In this document: in pieces, positions 3,773 to 20,966 of the stretch
Numbering within the stretch: position 1 is the stretch's first letter
Layout: each line of letters begins with the position of its first letter
IMG/VR virus record: IMGVR_UViG_3300043419_000894
Location: 1 to 20,990 of that record
Origin: a virus
Strand: one strand, 5' to 3'
Length of the DNA: 20,990 nucleotides
Notes under the pieces: generated by a model
What the model saw: only the letters and a program-made list of their open reading frames with translations
Told to the model about the DNA's origin: nothing
The model's database searches: none
Made by a program: the position numbers and the translations under genes

Positions 3773-5590
3773 ATGTCACATTTATTAACATCTGGACAGG
3801 TTGGTAACATCGGATTAAACCACATGAAGGCTATCCGTAAAGAAACACAATCTAAATGGGATTCATTAGGATTCCTAGACGGTCTAAAAGGACACGTTAA
3901 AGAAAACATCGCTCAGTTGTATGAAAACCAAGCGTCTACATTATTAACTGAAAACACTACTACTAACTCTTCTGGTTCTTTCGAAACAGTTGTGTTCCCA
4001 ATTGTACGTAGAGTATTCTCTAAATTATTAGCTAATGATATCGTATCTGTACAAGCTATGAACATGCCAATCGGTAAATTGTTCTACTTCGTTCCAGTTA
4101 CTTCTCAACGTGTTGACGCTGCTGGTGCTGCTGGAAGCCCTTACGGTACTAACGGTACTTGGACTCCTCAATACTCTGCTCACACAGCTATGAACGGTGG
4201 TGTTCCATCTTGTATTAGTCAAACTAACTGTGCTGTTACAGCATTTGAAGGTAAAAACTTATACGATGCATTCTACAATGACGGTTTATTTGATAACTCA
4301 AAAGGTACTCTTACAATCGTTGCTGGTGGATACAACACTTACACATTAGGTACAACTGGTGCTTATTCTGTTGCAGCTCCTTCTGCTACATTGCCTACTG
4401 CTAATGATGGTTCATTAAGAGGTATCATTATCGGAATCACTGGATTCTCTCCAAGTGTACACGCTAAACAAGTTATGACTGGTGCTAACGGTGACCCAAT
4501 GGATACTGAATCATTCTTGGCTTCATTACACGTATTGACTTCAGCTCCAATCTTAGATAGAGATGGTAACGTTATCATCGCTACTGGAAAAGAAGTTCCT
4601 TTCCGTTTAGTAACTCAACAATATGGTAAAGGTATTGTAGACTATACATCATTAACTGATGCTACTGGTACTCTTTACGTAGAATTAGACTTACGTCACC
4701 CTGTTGGAACAACTGCTTCTGGAACTCTTACGTCTCCTGGAACATCTACTTACGATGGTTACGTTGGTGCTTCTGCATCTACTGTGTCTGCATTCACATT
4801 CACAACTGCATGGGCTGAATACGCTACATTAGAACTTGAAACTGAAATGGGAGAAGTATCTTTCAAATTAGACGAAGTTGTTGTTGCTGTTGAAGAAAGA
4901 AAATTACGTGCTACTTGGTCTCCAGAGCTTGCTCAAGACGTTAGTGCATTCCACAACATTGACGCAGAAGCTGAATTAACAGCTATGTTGTCAGAACAAG
5001 TTGCTGCTGAGATTGACCGTGAAATCCTTAGAGATATCCGTAAAGCTGCTGCATGGCAATTGAGATGGGATTACAATGGTTGGAGAAAAGCTGCAACATC
5101 TGCAAACCCATACACTCAAAAAGACTGGAACCAAACTTTAATCACTAGATTGAACCAAGTTTCTGCTCAAATCCACAAATCTACTCTTAGAGGTGGTGCT
5201 AACTTTATCGTAGTTTCTTCTGAAATCTCTGCTATCTTTGATGATTTAGAATACTTCCACGTAAGTGATGCTAACCCAGAGCAAGACCAATATAACATGG
5301 GTATCGAAAGAATCGGTTCATTATCTGGACGTTTCCAAGTATACAGAGACCCTTATGCACCAGCTTACTCAGTAATCATTGGTCACAAAGGTAAATCTTT
5401 ACTTGATACTGGTTATATCTACGCTCCATACGTGCCATTACAATTAACTCCAACGATGTACAATCCGTTCAACTTTGCTCCAGTTAAAGGTATCATGACA
5501 CGTTACGCTAAGAAAGTTGTTAACAACAGATTCTACGGTCACGTAAGAGTTGATGGTGTTCCAACATTTGATGTGAACGAATTAAGATAA
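3773..5590 (+). CDS. 23: Major capsid protein, T4 gp23-like
   Basis: This is the main shell subunit. Two regions align with T4 gp23 from memory. The first is the N-terminal block around LLTENTTTNSSG followed by VRRVFSKLLANDIVSVQAMN (matching the gp23 pattern of FLTE-A, MVRRAIP, FDICGVQPMN). The second is ELAQDVSAFHNIDAEAELT near residue 390, matching gp23 ELAQDLRAVHGMDADAELS. By this alignment the delta propeptide is residues 1-60, cut after Glu60 (L-T-E before Asn). At 605 residues it exceeds the 521 of T4 gp23. The extra length lies in a Gly/Thr/Ser/Ala-rich section of about residues 110-350, so an enlarged insertion domain is likely. An A-rich leader with no Shine-Dalgarno precedes the ATG. 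Codon use is regular, as expected of a highly expressed gene. Confidence 0.95.
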   Translation: MSHLLTSGQVGNIGLNHMKAIRKETQSKWDSLGFLDGLKGHVKENIAQLYENQASTLLTENTTTNSSGSFETVVFPIVRRVFSKLLANDIVSVQAMNMPIGKLFYFVPVTSQRVDAAGAAGSPYGTNGTWTPQYSAHTAMNGGVPSCISQTNCAVTAFEGKNLYDAFYNDGLFDNSKGTLTIVAGGYNTYTLGTTGAYSVAAPSATLPTANDGSLRGIIIGITGFSPSVHAKQVMTGANGDPMDTESFLASLHVLTSAPILDRDGNVIIATGKEVPFRLVTQQYGKGIVDYTSLTDATGTLYVELDLRHPVGTTASGTLTSPGTSTYDGYVGASASTVSAFTFTTAWAEYATLELETEMGEVSFKLDEVVVAVEERKLRATWSPELAQDVSAFHNIDAEAELTAMLSEQVAAEIDREILRDIRKAAAWQLRWDYNGWRKAATSANPYTQKDWNQTLITRLNQVSAQIHKSTLRGGANFIVVSSEISAIFDDLEYFHVSDANPEQDQYNMGIERIGSLSGRFQVYRDPYAPAYSVIIGHKGKSLLDTGYIYAPYVPLQLTPTMYNPFNFAPVKGIMTRYAKKVVNNRFYGHVRVDGVPTFDVNELR

Positions 5591-5649: not shown

Positions 5650-6150
5650 TTACTTTTCTTTTATCATTTTCTCCCACCAAGTTAGATTCTCATCTTCTTT
5701 GGTATATTCATCTAAATAAGTAATATCTAGTTCCCATTTATGTCGTGACCTTTTAAAGTATGTGTCAAAAGCACTTACTAAATAATCTTTAGCTTCATCT
5801 TCAGTTATTCCATTAACTTTCATTAATTGTTGTAATACAATTTCACTTTCACCATTTATTTGGGCTAAGCCTGGATGTTTTACTTTATGACAATTAGGAC
5901 ATAAGGAAATTAACCCTACAAGTTTTTGAATAAGAGTTTCATCGTTATAGTCCCAAATCTCGTGACACTCTACATTGTGGTTATAACCTTGGTTTTTCCC
6001 AGTATCACCACATATTTCACATTTATTGTCAGCGGCTTCATATGATTTTTTTCTTATAATATCCCATTCTTTTTTTGTAACGTTACTTCTAACGTTGCTG
6101 TACCAAGATGTCGATGGTACTATTTCCGATGTTAATTTGTAGTCTTTCAT
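5650..6150 (-). CDS. HNH endonuclease
   Basis: The 166-residue protein carries a clear zinc-supported HNH module: Cys44-x2-Cys47, the His63-Glu64 block (ECHEIWDY), then LCPNCHKVKH with Cys84, Cys87, His88 and His92. These are the metal and catalytic positions of the ECxxCG...HExW...CxxCHxxKH type often called phage HNH or McrA-like nucleases. The N-terminal 40 and C-terminal 65 residues have no recognised domain. Its ATG overlaps the stop of the upstream gene (ATGA), so it is translated with the PD-(D/E)XK-like partner. It could be a free-standing homing nuclease next to the capsid gene, or part of a two-nuclease exclusion cassette. Confidence 0.88.
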   Translation of the reverse strand: MKDYKLTSEIVPSTSWYSNVRSNVTKKEWDIIRKKSYEAADNKCEICGDTGKNQGYNHNVECHEIWDYNDETLIQKLVGLISLCPNCHKVKHPGLAQINGESEIVLQQLMKVNGITEDEAKDYLVSAFDTYFKRSRHKWELDITYLDEYTKEDENLTWWEKMIKEK

Positions 6151-6704
6151 ATTAATTTTATCAATTCTTCGTAATTTGAAAATGGTTTAACCTTATATAG
6201 ACCAGTAAATGCCGTTTTGGTACCTCTAGCTTTTAATGACGGGCTCAATATTTCGTCATCAGATTGGTATTTGTTTAAATCTTCTGGACTAGCAACACCT
6301 AGAATACAAAATTTTTCATCGTCTAATCTTATGATGATTATCTCTGGTTTTTCTGATTGTTTAAAAATTATTGGGTATTTTCCTAATTCAACGGTTTTGA
6401 TACCAATATTCAACCCAATACTGGATAAGTCTGGTACGTGGTAATCGTTTGAGTCCCCGACACTTAAATCGACAAATTCTTTACCAATATACTGACTTAA
6501 AGCCAATTCACCACCAGTGCCAGTTCGCCATCGTTTAGCTTCATTAAAAGAATCGACTACGTGGTGTGATTCATTTTTCTTTTTAACCATTACATTCTTT
6601 ACAAACTCATCAAGTCTTTTTGAATTGTTGTCAGTTAACGTAACTGTTCGTTCAGAGGAAATTAATGAATTTGTTAAGTATTTGTAAATTAATTTCGATA
6701 ACAT
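6147..6704 (-). CDS. Putative PD-(D/E)XK-like nuclease or restriction-like protein
   Basis: The ATG at 6704 is chosen over a TTG at 6707 because it overlaps the stop of a 42-aa gene (TGATG), giving 185 residues. A weak nuclease-fold pattern is visible: Glu66 in a Gly-rich helix start (TGTGGELALSQ), Pro91-Asp92 (HVPDLSSIGLN), then Gly-Ile-Lys103 (GIKTVE). In a true PD-(D/E)XK site the residue two before Lys is Asp or Glu; here it is Gly, so catalysis is uncertain. A metal ligand could come from Glu66 or Glu106. The hydrophobic EIIIIRLD strand after it is typical of the fold. The gene overlaps an HNH nuclease downstream, which supports a nuclease context. The family is not confidently recognised. 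Confidence 0.55.
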   Translation of the reverse strand: MLSKLIYKYLTNSLISSERTVTLTDNNSKRLDEFVKNVMVKKKNESHHVVDSFNEAKRWRTGTGGELALSQYIGKEFVDLSVGDSNDYHVPDLSSIGLNIGIKTVELGKYPIIFKQSEKPEIIIIRLDDEKFCILGVASPEDLNKYQSDDEILSPSLKARGTKTAFTGLYKVKPFSNYEELIKLI

Positions 6705-6832
6705 CAATCGTTTTCTGTAATAAAATTCTTAACCATTTCTCTAATGATTTGACCTAGTTGTTGGTCATTTGGAGTTGTTTCCACCAATTCGATTATATCT
6801 TGTAAGAATTCATTTGGGTTTTTATCTTCCAT
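6704..6832 (-). CDS. Small acidic protein (42 aa), first gene of the nuclease cassette
   Basis: The reading frame starts MEDKNPNEFLQDII and ends MVKNFITEND. It has 42 codons and its TGA overlaps the ATG of the next gene. A host-type promoter (-7 box at 6848-6855) ends 15 bases before its ATG. Position, overlap and codon use argue for a real gene despite its size. The product is acidic and helical with no recognised domain. Being first in a two-nuclease operon, it could be a regulator, partner or inhibitor of the nucleases, but this is only inference from order. Confidence 0.6.
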   Translation of the reverse strand: MEDKNPNEFLQDIIELVETTPNDQQLGQIIREMVKNFITEND

Positions 6833-6886: not shown

Positions 6887-6894
6887 TATTTATC
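6887..6894 (+). promoter_or_regulatory. Variant late box TATTTATC (exported nuclease)
   Basis: One base differs from TATTTATA. It sits on the sense strand, 13 bases before the ATG at 6908, matching the 13-15 base spacing seen at 10418, 13854 and 18498. An AAAGGA Shine-Dalgarno-like sequence lies between it and the start. Confidence 0.35.
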
Positions 6895-6907
6895 TTAAAA
6901 GGATTTT

Positions 6908-7555
6908 ATGAGAAAGTTAACGATAGTTTTAGCATTCATAATGGTTTCAATCACATCAATTGCTCAAACCATAACAACCGACAGTAATTTAATTATACCG
7001 CACGATGATATTACGTTATATTTGACAAAGGATACGTGTGTATTGGCATCAAAACATGTTATCACATATGCTGAGTTCCAAAAAATAGATAAAGAAAGAG
7101 ATAATAAATGGTTTCAAGATGTTTATAAAGGAAAATATACCAAGGATTCTTATTTAAAGACTGGGTATGATATTGGCCATTTAACCCCATCACATATTAC
7201 ATCGTATGATAACGTATTAAACCACAATTCTTTTAGTTTATTTAATGCCGCACCACAACTGGCTGCATTCAACAGAGGTAAATGGGCCCAAATGGAGGGT
7301 GGTGTTGAGGATACTATAGCCAAGTATAAGAAAGACGCAGTTATCATCACAGGAGTTGTCTATGACGGTAATAAGACTACATACATGGGTACATCAAAAA
7401 TTCCAATCCCAATGTCGTTCTTTAAAATTATTTATATCGATAAAAAAGTATTTTGTTGGATTGGTTCTAATGTAAATGGGTTGATTGCAACTACAACGGT
7501 TAAAGAATTAAATGAAATATTCAAATTAAACAAAATGACTTTAAAGATAGATTAA
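6908..7555 (+). CDS. Exported DNA/RNA non-specific endonuclease (NUC1 / Serratia nuclease family)
   Basis: The 215-residue protein begins with a typical signal peptide (MRKL, hydrophobic core, cut near ITSIAQ at residue 20), so it is probably exported to the periplasm or outside the cell. The beta-beta-alpha-metal nuclease core follows. YDIGHLTPSH holds the general-base His91; the usual DRGH is here DIGH, with Arg replaced by Ile. NAAPQLAAFNRGKWAQMEG supplies the Mg ligand Asn122 and Glu130 by analogy with Serratia nuclease N119 and E127. An AAAGGA ribosome site precedes the ATG and a strong terminator follows. The gene stands alone, divergent from the HNH cassette. It may degrade extracellular or incoming DNA, or scavenge nucleotides. 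Confidence 0.88.
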   Translation: MRKLTIVLAFIMVSITSIAQTITTDSNLIIPHDDITLYLTKDTCVLASKHVITYAEFQKIDKERDNKWFQDVYKGKYTKDSYLKTGYDIGHLTPSHITSYDNVLNHNSFSLFNAAPQLAAFNRGKWAQMEGGVEDTIAKYKKDAVIITGVVYDGNKTTYMGTSKIPIPMSFFKIIYIDKKVFCWIGSNVNGLIATTTVKELNEIFKLNKMTLKID

Positions 7556-7557
7556 AT

Positions 7558-7590
7558 AAAAAAGCCGAAGAATAATCCTCGGCTTTTTTT
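7558..7590. terminator. Bidirectional terminator between convergent genes
   Basis: AAAAAAGCCGA (7558-7568) pairs with TCGGCTTTTTT (7579-7589). The A and T runs serve both strands: the exported nuclease ending at 7555 and the zinc-ribbon protein ending at 7615. Confidence 0.85.
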
Positions 7591-7614: not shown

Positions 7615-8520
7615 TTAGGCTTTTGTACCACAGCTAGAACAAAATTTATGTCCTTTACCTAATTTAGTCCCACAGTTTGTGCAATAAACCTTAACGTTTA
7701 AATCTTCAACTGTGTTTATTTTTTGTGATACTGGAAGAAGTTTATATTCTACCGTATGGAAAGCAAAGTATTCAAAATCTTTGTTTACCGTTCTGAAAGT
7801 TTGGTCTGAGCTAGAACCTTGTTCAACTCTACCAGTTTCAATTGATTTTGAACGAACCATGCTACTAAGTGTTCTTAGTTTACTTTTTTTGATTGGTTCG
7901 GTTCTTTGTGAATATGTCACATCACTTGAATTAAATGAATCCATAGTCACACTAGAACTGTAAAGTGCTGTATTGCCAATTCCAGCTGATGTACTGGTAA
8001 AGGAAGCGTTTCCAGTCGTATTGGTGCTACCATTAATATTCTGAACATAACCACCAGTATTGGTTATCCAAGTTGGGTTACCAAATGAACCTCCGATACT
8101 TGTACTACTACCTTGAAGGGTTAGTGTTCCACCAAAGTATTGAGGAATTCTTTCTTTAAAGAACTCTACCTTGATATCACCATTGTTTTCGATTGCAGCT
8201 TTTACTTCCTCGGTATTGGCTACTTCGTAAGTATCAAATAAGAATTTTTTAGCCACGTCTAAGTAACGGTCTAAAAATACTCTTTGGCCAGGATTCAATA
8301 CCAGTCCACCTTGAGATAAAGCTTTATTGTTTAGTGTGATTTTCGCCAATACAACGTCTGTTGTTGGGTTAAAGATTTCAATTTGGAACTCTTGTCCGCT
8401 TTGAAGATAATAAGTCGGCATTTCGCCTTGTTTGTTGTAGACTTTGATTCTACTTTTGTTTACAGCAACGTTAGCCGTAGGAACCTTTTTGGATGGTTCC
8501 ATAATCATTTGTTTTTTCAT
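7615..8520 (-). CDS. Probable virion protein with C-terminal zinc ribbon
   Basis: I chose the ATG at 8520 (301 aa) because the bases before it form the A-rich leader typical of this genome; a TTG at 8586 would add 22 residues. Three parts are visible. The first is a beta-rich N-terminal domain containing NPGQRVFLDRYLDVAKKF and FDTYEV. The second is a low-complexity Gly/Ser/Thr/Asn region about 80 residues long. The third is a C-terminal zinc ribbon (YCTNCGTKLG and KFCSSCGTKA, a Cys-x2-Cys, ten residues, Cys-x2-Cys arrangement) ending at the last residue. The linker-rich architecture and its place beside tail genes suggest a structural or surface-exposed virion component. The zinc ribbon could mediate protein or nucleic-acid contact. 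The family is not firmly recognised. Confidence 0.7.
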   Translation of the reverse strand: MKKQMIMEPSKKVPTANVAVNKSRIKVYNKQGEMPTYYLQSGQEFQIEIFNPTTDVVLAKITLNNKALSQGGLVLNPGQRVFLDRYLDVAKKFLFDTYEVANTEEVKAAIENNGDIKVEFFKERIPQYFGGTLTLQGSSTSIGGSFGNPTWITNTGGYVQNINGSTNTTGNASFTSTSAGIGNTALYSSSVTMDSFNSSDVTYSQRTEPIKKSKLRTLSSMVRSKSIETGRVEQGSSSDQTFRTVNKDFEYFAFHTVEYKLLPVSQKINTVEDLNVKVYCTNCGTKLGKGHKFCSSCGTKA

Positions 8521-8600
8521 TTTATTTAACTTTTTAATTTTATTATTGTACCAATTTCTTTGTTGCCTTAACAACTCTAAAGTCAAATAAATGACTCGAA

Positions 8601-8623: not shown

Positions 8624-8631
8624 TATAAATA
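8624..8631 (-). promoter_or_regulatory. Candidate phage late promoter box TATTTATA (zinc-ribbon protein)
   Basis: This is an exact box on the sense strand in the 142-base gap between the 112-aa gene and the zinc-ribbon gene. It is 103 bases before the preferred ATG (8520) or 37 before the TTG (8586), a longer leader than at the other sites. Confidence 0.45.
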
Positions 8632-8662
8632 TACGACAAATATTTTTTTTTGTCAAGTGTTT

Positions 8663-9001
8663 TTATTCAAAATCTGGTCCTTGTTCACAAATTGTTGATT
8701 GGATTTGGTGCCAATATGTGTCTGCTTCGTCTACCATGCTATCGCCAGACATGTGAGCCGTTGAAACTTCGTTGTCTATTTTTCTTTGCTCATGTTTCAT
8801 ATTCTCTAATGGTGCGTGTATTCTTTGCATTAATCTAGTTCTAGTTTCCTCACTAACACCTTTTAACGCTGCTTCAACATAATGTATAGCTTCAGCATAA
8901 TCATTCACGGTCATTTTATTACAAAGAGTTTGAGTCCCAGAATTCATATTCTGACCGTCAATCATTTGCTCTCTAATTCTTTTTTTAATAAAATCTTTCA
9001 T
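8663..9001 (-). CDS. Unknown small protein (112 aa), tail-gene operon
   Basis: The ATG overlaps the upstream stop (TAATG at 9001), so it is translationally coupled to the 467-aa virion-type protein. The protein is soluble and predominantly helical, with a basic start (MKDFIKKRIREQ) and an acidic C-terminus. It has two Cys residues not arranged as a metal site. No recognised domain. Because it is last in a run of putative tail/baseplate genes it may be a small structural or chaperone partner of its neighbour. That is inference from coupling. Confidence 0.6.
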   Translation of the reverse strand: MKDFIKKRIREQMIDGQNMNSGTQTLCNKMTVNDYAEAIHYVEAALKGVSEETRTRLMQRIHAPLENMKHEQRKIDNEVSTAHMSGDSMVDEADTYWHQIQSTICEQGPDFE

Positions 9002-10404
9002 TATTGCGAGTTTCTTAAATCAACTTGATTAACGATATCAAATTGTATTGCTTTTTTAATTGTCGATACTTCTAGGTTAGACGTAACCAACACATCTAAA
9101 TAATATGTGTTAGGAATTAAACTCCCAGTATCTAATAAGAAATAATAATTGTTTATTGTCATTTCAACTGGTTGGAAATCAATTACAGTTAATTCAGCAG
9201 AACCTTCAGATACATATAATCTGTATCTTATGTCAGTAACGTTTTGTGATTGCTCAACAGTATAAGGGATTCTAGCCGAAACCAATACCTTACGAATGTC
9301 ACCACGTTTAATTCTTTCTTTGTTTTGTAAACCAGAAATAGATACAGCAACTTTTTTAGGTAACATATCGCTATTTCCTATGTTGTAGTACTCCATAGAG
9401 CTCTTAAGAACAAAGTCTAGGTTAATGTCTGGTCTTAGAATACCATTGATAGTTACATTCTTCCATACATCGTTATACATAGTTTCTTCATTACCAGATG
9501 ATGGAATAAGGATATCAATAGAATAAACTCCTTTTGTTTCATGATTGACTTGAGATGGTCCGTAAGTTAAAATTAAGTTTCCAGAAGCATCAAACACATC
9601 CACACTAGGGTTAAAATCCAAATTGGTTGGATTTCCCGCAAGATTTACGTAAAGGTATAACTTATTAGGTTTATCTAAGTAAAAGTTGTTCCTATCGTCC
9701 ATAATCGTGTTATGATAGATTGTTTCAATAAATGGTTCGTAGAATGTTTGCGTATTGTTAGTAAAGAACCCAACGTATTGTAATGCTGTTGTGTTCATTT
9801 CTTCAAAAGCTCTAGGGTATGCAATACCTAATCCGTAGTTCGTATCACCTGTTAATAAACCGTTTACGTAATCAGTAATATCCATTTCAATATTCTCATT
9901 ACCTTTATCGAAGTGTTGTGTTGTAACAGTGATACCACTTGGTGAACCAGAGTAAACTCCAGTACCGCCAGTCCAGTTAACACCTGTTTGTGATTCAATC
10001 CAATTCGATGGTCCATTAGCAAATGCTGGGTCACCGTAAGCTAACAATGGATATTCATAATCGTATCCAGTACCATTGTCCCAATATTGGTCTACTTTAA
10101 ATAGAATAAGGTCGAAAGAAGTTGTTCTTTCTTTTGAACCCATATTTGTATTTAATAACTCTTTATCAAATGAACCCGTGTTGGTCATTCTAAGTGTGTG
10201 TTTAAGCTTGCTTAAATCAGTGTATGTTCCACCAGTATATAAACTTTTAAGTCTAGTTTCATCGAAATGAAATAAGAACCTACTATATTGTTGTTGTCCA
10301 ATGGCACCACCGTAAAATAACTCTGTCACTGGGTTTAAACCAGTGTTAACATTAGAGTTACTAACCATAGTATTGTTTTTGTCGAAATATGTGCGTATTA
10401 CCAT
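9001..10404 (-). CDS. Putative tail/baseplate structural or adhesin protein, beta-rich
   Basis: The 467 residues are rich in Asn, Thr, Tyr and alternating hydrophobics, with almost no Cys, as in beta-sandwich virion proteins. The N-terminal ~230 residues resemble a DNRLRE-type lectin-like unit: a spaced Asn/Gly start (SNSNVNTGLNPVTELFYGG), then YSRFLFHFDETRLKSL, later FDLILFKVDQYWDNGTGYDY and IEMDITDYVNGLLTG. The C-terminal ~200 residues look like two Ig-like or fibronectin-like beta domains (VDVFDASGNLILTYGPSQV; VEMTINNYYFLLDTGSLI). A TATTTATA box lies 13 bases before its ATG. It follows the gp5-like gene. A receptor-contacting or baseplate role is likely; precise identity is unsure. Confidence 0.6.
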   Translation of the reverse strand: MVIRTYFDKNNTMVSNSNVNTGLNPVTELFYGGAIGQQQYSRFLFHFDETRLKSLYTGGTYTDLSKLKHTLRMTNTGSFDKELLNTNMGSKERTTSFDLILFKVDQYWDNGTGYDYEYPLLAYGDPAFANGPSNWIESQTGVNWTGGTGVYSGSPSGITVTTQHFDKGNENIEMDITDYVNGLLTGDTNYGLGIAYPRAFEEMNTTALQYVGFFTNNTQTFYEPFIETIYHNTIMDDRNNFYLDKPNKLYLYVNLAGNPTNLDFNPSVDVFDASGNLILTYGPSQVNHETKGVYSIDILIPSSGNEETMYNDVWKNVTINGILRPDINLDFVLKSSMEYYNIGNSDMLPKKVAVSISGLQNKERIKRGDIRKVLVSARIPYTVEQSQNVTDIRYRLYVSEGSAELTVIDFQPVEMTINNYYFLLDTGSLIPNTYYLDVLVTSNLEVSTIKKAIQFDIVNQVDLRNSQ

Positions 10405-10436: not shown

Positions 10437-11432
10437 TTAATTAATTCGAATGTTTTTGGATAACATTGATTTTTCTAGGTCATCAGCTTTTGACTTAAAT
10501 GTGGCCAACGCTAGTTTATTACCAGAAGCTGCCAAATCAGTCGCTGGGTTTCCATTTCCATTGTGTACGTGTGCGAACAACGCTTCCTTTAAAAGCTTCA
10601 AATATTCAATTAAAACGTCACCAAATGGTAGTTGGTGTGCTTCTTCTAAAATCCTACCCATTTCTTCGTCACTGATTAGTTGGTCTTGGCCAGTTACGTT
10701 AAATCTAGGGCTACCTTCTTTATGTGTGATAAGATTTATTTTGTTTGATACAATTGTAGTTATAGTACCATTTTCCCCAGTAGTGTTTTCGCTACTAGGC
10801 GATAAAATCGATGTGTCATTTTTAATTTGAATATACCCTTGTGTTTTAGTATTAAACTGAAAATTATATGGGTTTTTATCATTTGGTGTTGAGGTTTCAA
10901 ATTTACCAGCCCTTAAAATGATTTCATTCGTTTTTTGTGTGATGTCTGTATTATACCTCCCTTGGATTGAGATGTCTTCTAAATCTGGGAAAATACCAAT
11001 TAATTGTGGGATTGTATTTACATTAACTCTAGGTGTGGTCGGTCCAAACGTAAAACCACGCATGGCACTTAGTCTAGCCTCATCTTTATTTAGTTTATCT
11101 AACTGTGAAATAATTGGACCAACATATATTCTATCGGCATGTTGTCTATATTTATCAAAAACAAAAATCCAAACCATTTCACCTACTTTAGGGACACTAG
11201 AAAAGTATTTTGGTATCATAGGAAAAGCAAATGGTAAATTACCATCTAGAACACCATCGTCACCACCAGCTGATTGTGAGCCTTTAATTCTAACTTTTAT
11301 TCGACCTAAACCAAATTCATCAACGTTTTCAACTACTTCACCATATTTTAAATATTGGAAGCTACTCATATCGTCATAGTTACTCTTACCGCCAGTTGTT
11401 AATCTGTTGGTCCCTTCGTAAATAAAATACAT
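10437..11432 (-). CDS. 5: Baseplate central spike protein, T4 gp5-like, without lysozyme domain
   Basis: The 331-residue protein has the gp5/VgrG-type N-terminal OB-fold at about residues 28-110. Key stretches are GEVVENVDEFGLGRIKVRI, LPFAFPMIPKYFSSVPKVGE and MVWIFVFDK followed by RIYVGPI. The middle is Asn/Thr-rich. The C-terminal part (about 255-331) is helical with an A-HVHNGNG motif (His288, His290) common in phage gp5-like spikes. T4 gp5 is about 575 residues with an internal lysozyme domain; no such domain fits here. A clear Shine-Dalgarno (AAAGGAG, six bases from ATG) overlaps the end of the small upstream coiled-coil gene. It belongs to the tail operon. Confidence 0.8.
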   Translation of the reverse strand: MYFIYEGTNRLTTGGKSNYDDMSSFQYLKYGEVVENVDEFGLGRIKVRIKGSQSAGGDDGVLDGNLPFAFPMIPKYFSSVPKVGEMVWIFVFDKYRQHADRIYVGPIISQLDKLNKDEARLSAMRGFTFGPTTPRVNVNTIPQLIGIFPDLEDISIQGRYNTDITQKTNEIILRAGKFETSTPNDKNPYNFQFNTKTQGYIQIKNDTSILSPSSENTTGENGTITTIVSNKINLITHKEGSPRFNVTGQDQLISDEEMGRILEEAHQLPFGDVLIEYLKLLKEALFAHVHNGNGNPATDLAASGNKLALATFKSKADDLEKSMLSKNIRIN

Positions 11433-11433
11433 A

Positions 11434-11613
11434 TTATTCTCCTTTTAAACGTTTTAATATTATTTTGTTTGCCACGTCAAATCTTTTTTCTAATTCTTCT
11501 AGTTTTTCCAAATCTTTAAGCATTTTTAATTTAATAGCTTCGTGGTCGGCTTCCATTTGTTTTATTTCAAATAAAATATCATTATTTGATTTTCCTTCTA
11601 AATCTTCATTCAT
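11434..11613 (-). CDS. Small coiled-coil protein (59 aa) upstream of the gp5-like gene
   Basis: The ATG at 11613 opens a frame of 59 codons (starting MNEDLEGKSNNDI, ending NKIILKRLKGE) that stops one base before the gp5-like ATG. The start is 11 bases after the previous stop. Heptad-like Leu/Ile/Lys/Glu spacing runs through residues 12-58, predicting one long helix or coiled coil. The gp5 Shine-Dalgarno is inside its last codons, so the two are translationally linked. It fills what would otherwise be an unexplained 190-base gap in a tight operon. A baseplate-assembly or chaperone role is plausible by position; the family is unknown. Confidence 0.65.
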   Translation of the reverse strand: MNEDLEGKSNNDILFEIKQMEADHEAIKLKMLKDLEKLEELEKRFDVANKIILKRLKGE

Positions 11614-11624
11614 ATTTGTAATTT

Positions 11625-12029
11625 TTATCTAATTATTCCATCACCTATACCCATAGTTACTGTAGAACCTTGAGATACTACTGGTGCACCTAAATTTCCA
11701 ACACCAACTGAAAACACAGAAATACCAGGTGGTATAACAACGTTAACAACAGCTTCGGTTAGTAGTGAGTTTATTATTTCTTCGATTCGAATCACTTCCA
11801 TAGCTTCTTCGTTATTTGGCCCATCGGCAAATACATCACCTACTTGTCTACCAGATTCTGATTGTCTAGATATAATTCTAGCCGCTATGGCTTGGGCAGA
11901 TAGTCCTGGTCTTAGTTTGGCACCAATCATAATAAGTGGTGGTGGCAATGGAGCCACTGGTTCATCTGGTATGTTAAAAGCCGCTAGTATTGTGTTTAAT
12001 ACACCGCTTATCGTTCCTAAATCAAACAT
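11625..12029 (-). CDS. Putative baseplate-associated protein (134 aa)
   Basis: The gene shares one base with the preceding stop (TAATG at 12029), so it is coupled to the 473-aa gene. The N-terminus has a proline-rich PVAPLPPPLIMIGAKLRPG. The middle is helical (AQAIAARIISRQ; EAMEVIRIEEIINSLLTEAV). The C-terminus is Gly/Val-rich and beta-like with VIPPGISVFSVGVGNLG and VTMGIGDGIIR. That last part resembles small spike-tip or hub-associated proteins in general feel, but has no PAAR signature. Its position between the 473-aa protein and the gp5-like spike favours a baseplate role. Identity not recognised. Confidence 0.55.
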   Translation of the reverse strand: MFDLGTISGVLNTILAAFNIPDEPVAPLPPPLIMIGAKLRPGLSAQAIAARIISRQSESGRQVGDVFADGPNNEEAMEVIRIEEIINSLLTEAVVNVVIPPGISVFSVGVGNLGAPVVSQGSTVTMGIGDGIIR

Positions 12030-18548: not shown

Positions 18549-19523
18549 TTATTTTTTTAATTTGGTCATCCAACCATCAATCATATCATCCATTAAGGTT
18601 TCAAATGTGTATTCTGGTTTCCACCCTAGTGTTTCTCTGATTTTAGTCGAATCGCCTTTCAAATATTTCAATTCTTCAGCTCTAAGAAACTTGCCGTCTT
18701 GTGAAACATATTGTGTGTAATCCATGTCTAATTTTTTGAAAACATATTCGACCATTTCTCTAACCGAGTGCGTTGTCATTGTTGATACAACGAAATCGTC
18801 TGGTGTGTCGTGGTTGATAATCAAGTGCATAGCCTTAACATAGTCTTTTGAATGACCCCAATCTCTATAAGAATCCATATTCCCTAAAACTAATTTATCT
18901 GTTAACCCTAATTTGATTTCAACAGCTGTTTTTACAACTTTGTTGGTTACAAAGTTAGATGCTCTTCTAGGTGATTCGTGATTAAAAAGAATACCATTAC
19001 ATGTGTGTAATTTATAGGCGTTTCTATAGTTTCTAACAATGTTATACCCAAACACTTTAGAGCAACCGTAAGGACTTACTGGGTTCATTTGTGTTGTTTC
19101 TCTTTGGAAACAATCAGCGTCTACTGAATTACCAAACATCTCAGAAGAACTTGCTTGGTAAAATCTAGCTGTTGGACATGAGCGTCTATAGGCTTCTAAG
19201 ATATTTAAGATACCGATTGCATTTGTTTGCACTGTAAACTGTGGGATATCGAAACTAATTCTAACATGGCTTTGTGCTGCAAGATTGTAGATTTCATCTG
19301 GTTGAATTTCATCTAATAATTTTTCTAAACCACCTTGGTCTAATAAATCACCGTAATGAATATTAACTTTGTTTCTTACCTCATCCGAAAATCTACTTTG
19401 TTGTGACTCAACACTAGAGTTTCTTCTTATAATTCCATGGACCTCGTAACCTAATTCTAATAGGTATTCTGCTAAATATGAACCATCTTGTCCGTTGATT
19501 CCTGTGATAAACGCTTTTTTCAT
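18549..19523 (-). CDS. gmd: GDP-mannose 4,6-dehydratase
   Basis: This enzyme converts GDP-D-mannose to GDP-4-keto-6-deoxy-D-mannose, the branch point for GDP-fucose, GDP-rhamnose, GDP-colitose and GDP-perosamine. It is a short-chain dehydratase. NADP binding is by TGINGQDGSYLAEYLLELGY (residues 7-26) followed by RRNSS. The catalytic site has SSSEMFG (Ser126/127, Glu128) and SPYGCSKVFGYN (Tyr152, Lys156). The diagnostic NHESPRR block is at 181-187 and LGNMDSYRDWGHSKDYVKAM near 213-232. At 324 residues it is a little shorter than cellular enzymes (about 340-375) but all key blocks are present. It is last in the cassette GT10 / aminotransferase / gmd, and its product is the expected substrate of the neighbouring aminotransferase. 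Confidence 0.95.
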   Translation of the reverse strand: MKKAFITGINGQDGSYLAEYLLELGYEVHGIIRRNSSVESQQSRFSDEVRNKVNIHYGDLLDQGGLEKLLDEIQPDEIYNLAAQSHVRISFDIPQFTVQTNAIGILNILEAYRRSCPTARFYQASSSEMFGNSVDADCFQRETTQMNPVSPYGCSKVFGYNIVRNYRNAYKLHTCNGILFNHESPRRASNFVTNKVVKTAVEIKLGLTDKLVLGNMDSYRDWGHSKDYVKAMHLIINHDTPDDFVVSTMTTHSVREMVEYVFKKLDMDYTQYVSQDGKFLRAEELKYLKGDSTKIRETLGWKPEYTFETLMDDMIDGWMTKLKK

Positions 19524-19534
19524 TTTTCTCTTTT

Positions 19535-20137
19535 TTATTTTGTATTAAAAATTTCCATTTTTGTTAAATCTGGCCAATCGGTAACTAACCATTTTTTAGG
19601 TGTAGTATCAATTGCTTGTTTTATTTTTTCTAAACCTAATTTTGCAGTTTCTGGTGTCATATAGTAGTGAAAACCAATCGTGTCGATGTTTTGTTCTCTC
19701 CACGGTATATTAGGTAACCTACCATCATAAGACATTTTTTTCAATGTGATAAAATCCTCTTCATTGTCTAATAAAATAACACCACCTCTACCTAATGAAA
19801 GGTGTTTTTGATATTGAAAACTAAGACACATGAATGTGTTTGGGATGTAACTATCTTTCCTCCAAAGAACAGCAGCATCTATTATTCTTTTATCACCATA
19901 GTTAAGTGTATAATAATCCTCCCATTCTTCATCTCTCCATTCTCTTTCTAAACCCATTTTTTCAGCTAAAAATGGTACTGACAAATAAGTTCTTTTTGGT
20001 ACGCTTATTTTCGTTTCTTTAGTGTACCTTAAACACAATTCAATACCATGTGTACAACTATCTACTGCTACAGCATAAGGTGAACCAAAAAATTCAGCTA
20101 TTGCTTGTTCAAATTCACTAATAATTTCAAATGCCAT
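19535..20137 (-). CDS. Half-size DegT/DnrJ-type sugar aminotransferase (perosamine synthase-like)
   Basis: This is a PLP enzyme of the DegT/DnrJ/EryC1/StrS class, which aminates keto-sugars. The hallmarks are present in order. VAVDSCTHGIELCL (residues 23-36) is the phosphate-cup region. RIIDAAVLW (Asp87) is the PLP ring partner. SFQYQKHLSLGRGGVILLDN holds the Schiff-base lysine Lys111. The protein is only 200 residues against about 360-400 for the family. The large C-terminal domain is missing and the cofactor domain is compacted, yet there is no frameshift and the frame is clean. Since gmd is next, GDP-4-keto-6-deoxymannose is the likely substrate, giving GDP-perosamine; a 3-dehydratase (ColD-like) reaction is another option. 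It may need a partner or be a degenerate binding protein. Confidence 0.75.
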   Translation of the reverse strand: MAFEIISEFEQAIAEFFGSPYAVAVDSCTHGIELCLRYTKETKISVPKRTYLSVPFLAEKMGLEREWRDEEWEDYYTLNYGDKRIIDAAVLWRKDSYIPNTFMCLSFQYQKHLSLGRGGVILLDNEEDFITLKKMSYDGRLPNIPWREQNIDTIGFHYYMTPETAKLGLEKIKQAIDTTPKKWLVTDWPDLTKMEIFNTK

Positions 20138-20142
20138 ATTTT

Positions 20143-20161
20143 TTTATTTATTTATTTATTT
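20143..20161. repeat. TTTA tetranucleotide run at the stop of the GT10 gene
   Basis: Four to five tandem TTTA units (AAAT on the coding strand) cover the stop codon of the GT10-type gene and the leader of the aminotransferase. Slippage would alter only the last few residues or the leader length. Confidence 0.6.
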
Positions 20162-20966
20162 CGTTATTAACCTCAATAAAGTTTTTATAAATGTAATCTT
20201 CTGCAACCAATAAATCAATAGCTAATTGTAGATTTTTTTCAATTGATTTTATTTTTGATTCGTATAGCTCAAATGATAAATCTTCAATTTTAAAATTATC
20301 ATCTAATGTTATAATACCATTTGTATCAAAATAATCACCAATGTTTGAGATTCCGTAGTAAATTGGTATTGTACCAGTCATAAAACAATCAGTAATCTTT
20401 TCGGTAAACATGTTAGGGTATGTAGCATTTTCCATCACAATTGAAAAACAGTAATCTTTTAACCCGTCTTCTTTATTTGGTATTTGTCTATAACCCCTAC
20501 CAAAATGGTCGCATTTACTCGAAAATTTTTGAATCATTTGTTGCCTATAAATGTGCTCTGAACACATTGTTTTGTTTGATGCAATCATTGATACCAATTT
20601 ATTTTTTGGGTACATCTCACCATGTGCAAAATAAGATTTAGCACTACATTGGGTAATCTGAAATATATCTGATAGTTTTGCTAACTCGACATCATGTGTA
20701 AAAACTTTGATGAATTTGTTTTTCAATACATCAATGTTGTTTGCACACCATGTATATAGGTGTGGTATAATAGTTTTCGATTCACATAACCAACCGTAAT
20801 TTTTAGTTTCTAGTTTCATTGGAAATTGCAACCCGTTGTCGATGTATATCGAAATGGGTGCTAAACCACTACCTTTAACCCATTCTACGAATTTTGGTTC
20901 CATGTCATTTGTTGATACGCTGTGTTGGAATCCACCACCAATCATATTTATTTTTGCTCTAGCCAT
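20148..20966 (-). CDS. GT10-type (fucosyltransferase-like) glycosyltransferase
   Basis: This enzyme transfers a sugar from a GDP-sugar to an acceptor glycan. The C-terminal donor-binding signature of GT10 is clear: CFSIVMENA (residues 173-181), then MFTEKITDCFMTGTIPIYYG (186-205), matching the FSIxFENS...TEKxxDAFxxGxxPIYxG pattern. KNKLVSMIASNK (121-132), another block seen in phage and giant-virus GT10 proteins, lies upstream. It is cytoplasmic with no membrane segment, and 272 residues is near a minimal catalytic unit. The neighbouring gmd and aminotransferase supply GDP-linked 6-deoxy sugars, so the donor may be GDP-perosamine, GDP-fucose or a relative. The ATG at 20966 is 24 bases from the window edge, so any upstream partner gene is not visible. 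Confidence 0.85.
   Translation of the reverse strand: MARAKINMIGGGFQHSVSTNDMEPKFVEWVKGSGLAPISIYIDNGLQFPMKLETKNYGWLCESKTIIPHLYTWCANNIDVLKNKFIKVFTHDVELAKLSDIFQITQCSAKSYFAHGEMYPKNKLVSMIASNKTMCSEHIYRQQMIQKFSSKCDHFGRGYRQIPNKEDGLKDYCFSIVMENATYPNMFTEKITDCFMTGTIPIYYGISNIGDYFDTNGIITLDDNFKIEDLSFELYESKIKSIEKNLQLAIDLLVAEDYIYKNFIEVNNEINK

Follow-up and report, generated by a model that had tools for sequence, protein, structure and literature searches.

A predicted exported nuclease encoded beside the phage capsid gene

The phage DNA analyzed here carries a gene for what we read as a Sec-exported, metal-dependent nuclease of the beta-beta-alpha (NUC) type, which would be made together with the virion genes; we put the probability of this reading at roughly 0.6. 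The window, that is, the whole stretch of 20,990 bases that was analyzed, is a virus record to which none of 50,697 phage records is closely similar at the DNA level. Since profile searches revealed in it a gp23-like capsid gene (PF07068, 2.6e-72) along with genes for an S77 prohead protease and PhoH, its source is a T4-like phage. Phage-encoded exported nucleases are already known elsewhere, and the noteworthy parts of the present case are the clade-wide loss of two arginines and a candidate cargo slot with two kinds of tag.

6908 to 7555, plus strand: DNA/RNA nonspecific endonuclease of 215 amino acids (PF01223 profile, alignment and predicted fold)
7558 to 7589, no strand assigned: intrinsic terminator-like hairpin of 14 pairs in the interval between the nuclease gene and the convergent gene 7615 to 8586, flagged on the minus strand, with runs of A and T on either side

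The nuclease open reading frame (ORF) starts with the ATG at 6908 and stops at 7553 to 7555, in agreement with the position, frame and length of the original prediction. Its product matches Endonuclease_NS (PF01223) with an E value of 2.2e-27 and a score of 96.6 bits (curated cutoff, 23), which bears out the proposed phage-encoded NUC family; it also matches the nuclease family PHROG 14168 (3e-13), and an NCBIfam search with this ORF gave no match.

The predicted fold pointed in the same direction. A profile built from 23 viral proteins, which share 19 to 87% identity with the window protein, matched 47 PDB sequences, including EndoG, NucA and Serratia nuclease (3.5e-21). The structure model computed from the 23-row alignment (mean pLDDT, 76.3; pTM, 0.75) has the beta-beta-alpha metal-finger fold, with low confidence in the active-site loop (residues 81 to 110, block means of 55 to 73), its weakest part outside the signal; an earlier model from a shallow alignment had been poor (mean pLDDT, 56). 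The best re-aligned PDB matches of the model were the Serratia nuclease entries 1qae and 1ql0 (Z 14.1, rmsd 3.3 over 176 residues), and Foldseek matched it to EndoG 4qn0 (5.5e-8). The window protein thus resembles Serratia nuclease, Anabaena NucA and EndoG in its modeled fold and in having counterparts of Arg57, His89, Asn110, Asn119 and Glu127. It differs from them, however, in reading DIGH for DRGH, in having Glu for a second Arg, in sharing only about 20% identity with them and in being encoded by a phage, in a probably late gene adjoining gp23.

Two active-site arginines are lost across the clade

7097 to 7099, plus strand: Arg64, counterpart of Anabaena NucA Arg93 and Serratia Arg57 (2o3b alignment; invariant in 23 viral rows)
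7169 to 7180, plus strand: DIGH, residues 88 to 91, DRGH in most relatives; Ile89 lies at Serratia nuclease Arg87 and His91 at the general-base position (sequence, alignment)
7271 to 7273, plus strand: Asn122, metal-ligand position (Serratia Asn119; alignment)
7295 to 7297, plus strand: Glu130 (Serratia Glu127; alignment)
7307 to 7309, plus strand: Glu134, at NucA Arg167 and Serratia Arg131, the second lost arginine (alignment)

By its aligned residues, the protein is a DXGH-type member of PF01223 that stands outside the canonical DRGH subgroup. It has the general-base His (H91), the metal-ligand Asn (N122), the Glu (E130) and the Arg57-type arginine (R64) of the family, the first three at the residues named in the original prediction. 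The altered DRGH motif reported there is indeed DIGH, and the residue four positions past the catalytic Glu is Glu134, so that both arginines of the canonical subgroup are missing. In the profile match to NucA 2o3b, R64, H91, N122 and E130 correspond to Arg93, His124, Asn155 and Glu163, whereas I89 and E134 stand where NucA has Arg122 and Arg167. The numbering of His-124, Arg-93 and Asn-155 is that of PMC2653514, from which the NucA numbers 122, 163 and 167, as well as EndoG R184 as the second position, were obtained by counting. The only residues invariant among the 23 viral proteins are R64, D88, G90, H91, F109, N113, Q117, N122, W126, E130, P168 and K173; divergent as these proteins are, the counterparts of Serratia Arg57, His89, Asn110, Asn119 and Glu127 are unchanged in all of them.

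Both arginine positions are altered throughout the clade. Position 89 is Ile in 17, Leu in 6 and Met in 1 of 24 clade records (window included, among the matches listed). At position 134, all 15 aligned clade proteins have Glu or Gln, whereas the 8 viral proteins from outside the clade all have Arg. A sequencing error at Ile89 was rejected because Arg is missing from this position in 23 additional records. Among 13 sequences, the mature part had a median dN/dS of 0.081 (60 of 78 pairs were usable) and the signal one of 0.448 (70 of 78), values that are rough due to saturation of dS (median, 1.49). A clade-wide dead pseudogene was rejected as well, given the mature dN/dS of 0.08 and the invariant catalytic positions. 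In one record (L014/L031), the nuclease frame is broken after about 50 codons, near 7989 to 8116, either genuinely or by a sequencing error.

The original prediction had treated the change of Arg to Ile as a possible loss of activity. This need not follow, because the remaining catalytic positions are invariant in the 23 viral relatives and the gene appears to be under purifying selection. In human EndoG, replacement of the DRGH arginine (R139A) is reported to lower kcat from 0.07 to 2.77e-5 per second, about 2,500-fold, and Km about 18-fold, and R184A lowers kcat 9-fold, to 7.68e-3 per second (PMC2653514). Streptococcus agalactiae NucA, which naturally has DKGH, is active, and its Arg version is more active (PMC4220975). 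From the slowed alanine mutants together with the active DKGH enzyme, we predict that the chemistry is retained and that the window protein is an active nuclease, probably slower than or differently tuned from the DRGH enzymes; by analogy with the effects of R139A and R184A, it could be very weak.

The loss of both arginines might instead have abolished turnover, leaving a nearly dead nuclease that binds DNA or RNA outside the cytoplasm. ENPP proteins, whose NUC-like domains are inactive, were matched by both the profile and the structure searches, which is consistent with such a binder. So are the lower Km and kcat of EndoG R139A and the tsetse Tsal proteins, members of the same family described as high-affinity binders with residual activity (PMC3479092). 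The Tsal proteins are, however, described in the same report as lacking the general-base His, whereas His91, Asn113, Asn122 and Glu130 are invariant here, and the activity of the DKGH enzyme of S. agalactiae further argues against complete loss of turnover. We consider a pure binder unlikely and retain an active, retuned nuclease as the preferred reading. An aliphatic residue or Lys at the DRGH Arg position is also found in other phage NUC proteins, and this variation, with Ile, Leu or Met in close relatives and Lys or Arg in distant phages within an otherwise invariant active site, offers a natural test of the role of the DRGH arginine.

Arginine replacement is common in phage relatives and rare in sampled cell relatives

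A pattern scan that left out the motif retrieved 13 viral records, 13 of 13 with DIGH; three pairs among them (L004/L013, L009/L012 and L010/L011) have the same or nearly the same protein. Seven further clade records (L018, L019, L021, L022, L027, L032 and L033) and the distant L034 were added by a second scan, and three more clade records (L153, L157 and L241) came from loci fetched by gp23 or L153. Selection of the first 13 records and of the gp23- and L153-fetched loci was independent of the DIGH or DMGH motif; the second scan used the pattern TGYDIGH and a later one SGYDMGHM, so that L034 and several of L232 to L238 are biased toward an aliphatic residue. Outside the clade, the motif is DMGH in XaC1, L232 to L234 and L238, DKGH in K64-1, DRGH in YerA41, L236 and L237, ARGH in Phosso and DIGH in L034; L158 carries a very divergent NUC protein with DKGH in the same genomic slot. 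On a quick tree with joined long branches, in which clade placement is not to be trusted, aliphatic and basic residues at this position are separated by at least four state changes.

Of 395 genomes from the class to which L099 (Crocinitomix) belongs, 147 gave a hit at 1e-3; the best scored 67.7 bits, and none was close. The 31 cell proteins inspected (top 30 by score plus L117) read DRGH in 29 cases, DKGH in 1 and SKGH in 1, with no aliphatic residue. A residue other than Arg thus appears to be common in phages and rare in the sampled cell relatives, a comparison subject to the sampling bias of the motif patterns. A recent gain from the host was rejected, as no relative was found in the genome contigs (searched with two patterns only) and no close cell protein in the 395 genomes. 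Two records from an Acinetobacter "phage" contig were discounted as phage evidence because this contig contains chromosomal genes.

Endonucleases of the same family with a hydrophobic N terminus occur in several large phages (Klebsiella K64-1, RaK2, Xanthomonas XaC1, Sinorhizobium Phosso and Yersinia YerA41), and the XaC1 enzyme shares the aliphatic residue (DMGH). These proteins are nevertheless only about 30 to 35% identical to the window protein and lie in other gene neighborhoods. Streptococcal prophages likewise carry genes for exported DNases, such as Spd-3 (PMC3629212), and motif variants are reported in related streptococcal enzymes (NRGH in Spd1, DRSH in Sda1; PMC4220975). Those DNases, however, are virulence factors encoded by temperate phages of Gram-positive hosts, in contrast to the window gene, with its late-type box in a T4-like phage. 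Our literature search, which covered secreted nucleases of phages, jumbo phages and superinfection, found no study of this clade.

The N terminus resembles a Sec signal peptide

6908 to 6964, plus strand: probable Sec signal peptide, residues 1 to 19, with proposed cleavage before Gln20 (every clade row has a small residue followed by Gln)
7037 to 7039, plus strand: Cys44, possible disulfide partner of Cys183 (clade alignment)
7454 to 7456, plus strand: Cys183, possible disulfide partner of Cys44 (clade alignment)

The signal peptide of the original prediction is supported, as a putative assignment from sequence features only, by the architecture of the N terminus: residues 1 to 19 comprise a basic start, a hydrophobic stretch and a small residue ahead of Gln20, which is invariant in the clade. 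The best 12-residue Kyte-Doolittle mean was 2.3 to 2.7 in 7 of 7 listed NUC genes. We conclude that the nuclease carries a probable Sec-like export signal; the Serratia and Anabaena nucleases are exported too. Of 15 clade rows, 12 have both Cys44 and Cys183 and the remaining 3 have neither; such joint gain or loss is as expected of a disulfide and would fit an exported protein.

A late-type box precedes the nuclease gene

6887 to 6894, plus strand: late-type box TATTTATC, one mismatch versus TATTTATA (sequence; enrichment of TATTTATA in related phages)
6897 to 6903, plus strand: AAAAGGA, possible ribosome-binding site ahead of the ATG (sequence, inference)

The late-type box with one mismatch was correctly identified in the original prediction, and its consensus recurs at other genes. 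On the sense strand and within 45 nucleotides upstream, TATTTATA precedes 5 of the 25 window ORFs, compared with 0.17 expected at random positions and a maximum of 3 in 2,000 draws; these boxes lie upstream of 1694, 7615, 9001, 13453 and 17622. Within the same distance in 19 loci, it precedes 12 of 17 protease genes, 11 of 18 g9001 genes, 7 of 7 g13453 genes and 8 of 14 NUC genes and none of the other 16 gene groups. Where the NUC gene has no box of its own (e.g., in L018 and L024), the upstream gene running into it has one. The late box of T4 is TATAAATA, the reverse complement of TATTTATA; on the sense strand, TATAAATA was absent from the upstream regions of both the four box-bearing gene groups and all 25 window ORFs. 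The box common to the protease, g9001 and g13453 genes supports the virion-phase expression suggested in the original prediction, and the nuclease gene is probably late.

The nuclease gene occupies a variable slot beside gp23

3773 to 5590, plus strand: gp23-like major capsid protein gene, left border of the cargo slot (PF07068, 2.6e-72)
5650 to 6150, minus strand: HNH endonuclease gene, another slot gene (PHROG 5200, 2e-55)
6147 to 6707, minus strand: slot gene of unknown family, divergent from the nuclease gene, start uncertain (ORF; neighborhood comparison)
8663 to 9001, minus strand: small late gene with the capsid-targeting-like N terminus MKDFIKKRIRE, a degenerate copy that misses the tag regular expression

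Judged from its gene content, the region between the gp23-like capsid gene and the tail-region genes is a variable cargo slot. In all NUC loci that reach far enough, the NUC gene lies between gp23 and either the zinc-ribbon gene or g9001, in the orientation of gp23. Among the gp23-fetched loci (the best 80), NUC sits in the slot of 5 of the 44 that have both borders (one pair being near-identical), the others holding different genes. NUC and gp23 identities are uncorrelated across 14 phages (rho 0.14, Mantel p 0.157), and the gene therefore seems to be mobile between phages; vertical coinheritance with gp23 is unsupported by the same figures. The gene at 6147 to 6707 is kept beside NUC in L005, L021, L022, L027 and L032 and matched no family at a usable E value.

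Many slot products begin with an 11-residue tag like MKxxIKKLLRE. Among unassigned ORFs, 34 of the 170 in the slot carry the tag, compared with 9 of the 448 located elsewhere; among assigned genes, it was found in 9 of 14 g8663 genes, 9 of 88 scaffold-gene hits and 1 of 514 others. Shuffled N termini gave 0.46 matches on average. Without the tag, the tagged ORFs belong to 25 families. Examples, with an [IL]xE prohead protease site, are the window gene 8663 to 9001 (minus strand), L158 10301 to 12650, L166 11673 to 12367 and L024 7058 and 8646. In T4, the capsid-targeting sequence of an internal protein is described as its N-terminal 10 residues, which the prohead protease cuts, and the internal proteins themselves (IPI to IPIII and Alt) form a comparable variable late cargo set (PMC9026906). 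Our literature search on capsid-targeting tags in Bacteroidota phages listed no study of them. The tags lead us to infer that cargo packaged in the capsid is encoded in the slot. The window nuclease differs from the T4 internal proteins, and from many of its own neighbors, in that it looks exported: the tag is present in 0 of 16 NUC proteins, which start with a hydrophobic stretch, and NUC would therefore be an exported kind of slot cargo.

This distribution also bears on the idea that the nuclease travels with the virion, on its surface or inside it, to act at the next host's surface or on biofilm DNA. The gene adjoins gp23 and has the common late box, the annotation of a relative in Yersinia phage YerA41 reads "phage particle associated protein," and particle-associated proteins of YerA41 are reported to include endo- and exonucleases (PMC7354516). 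The Sec-type start and the missing capsid-targeting-like tag, which other slot genes do have, nevertheless speak against it, and we regard a virion-borne enzyme as improbable.

Other slot genes illustrate both kinds of product. The L018 gene at 8624 to 9103, which overlaps the end of the nuclease gene, encodes an exported-looking CAP-domain protein, and the L175 gene at 10715 to 11980 encodes an M43 metallopeptidase whose N terminus is signal-like and whose C terminus has a weak, sub-cutoff match to Por_Secre_tail; both fit the export reading. Tagged slot proteins include an ADP-ribosyltransferase-like ART-PolyVal protein (L033, 6019 to 6873) and a GNAT protein (L165, 9848 to 10630), which are possible injected effectors like T4 Alt. 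The slot as defined here is a feature of little-studied large phages in which exported and capsid-targeted proteins are seemingly swapped.

Proposed action of the nuclease at lysis

In the mechanism that we propose, the nuclease would be synthesized late, together with the virion genes, moved by Sec and collected in the periplasm, where the inner membrane would shield the phage's own cytoplasmic DNA. Because it would be kept apart from that DNA, no dedicated inhibitor should be needed; a cognate inhibitor gene was sought and rejected, as NUC has no constant neighbor in the compared loci. Lysis would then free the nuclease to cleave host DNA and RNA that might otherwise trap virions. Such lysis-stage clearing is our first choice of role, held tentatively and at somewhat less than even odds, and a block to superinfection ranks second.

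While periplasmic, the enzyme may also cut the DNA of rival phages during its injection into the infected cell. The putative export signal is in line with a weapon against superinfection, and a variable, exchangeable slot (5 of 44 loci among the best 80; rho 0.14 with gp23) would suit competition between phages. The gene has a late box, however, rather than an early promoter, its late timing and position weakly oppose early exclusion, and our literature search returned nothing on periplasmic phage nucleases in superinfection. We therefore rate this as somewhat unlikely as the principal role. If the enzyme does hold off rivals or clear lysate DNA, that property of the phage would be open to direct measurement.

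DNA digested outside the cytoplasm could also supply nucleotides to the infected cell. Late expression follows most phage DNA synthesis, and the predicted timing and position of the gene oppose a supply for the phage's own replication; moreover, no conserved uptake gene lies beside the nuclease in the compared loci. Exported NUC-type enzymes of bacteria do digest extracellular DNA, as reported for Moraxella catarrhalis NucM (PMC6384898), and we still hold scavenging to be highly improbable.

A broader and, as a whole, doubtful reading would be that large T4-like phages, probably of Bacteroidota, carry an exchangeable late island beside gp23 in which an address tag sets the destination of each product. 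The 11-residue capsid-targeting-like tag would send a protein into the next host, and the Sec signal would send it outside the current one; the nuclease would be an exported item, made by its two lost arginines into a tight-binding, slow enzyme that holds and cuts periplasmic DNA.

Probable host and adjoining window genes

Among the isolates in the phage records, Flavobacterium phage immuto has the most similar capsid protein (about 37% identity). The L175 M43/Por_Secre_tail gene suggests type IX secretion in a Bacteroidota host, and this gene and the capsid similarity together point to Bacteroidota as the probable host of this large phage. Moraphages, described as large T4-related aquatic phages, are likewise predicted to have Bacteroidota hosts (PMC12619734). 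The GDP-mannose dehydratase gene was uninformative about the host, with matches across many phyla. It belongs to a stretch adjoining PhoH (18549 to 20966, minus strand) with GDP-mannose dehydratase-like, aminotransferase-like (by eye) and GT10 fucosyltransferase-like genes, possibly a sugar-modification set.
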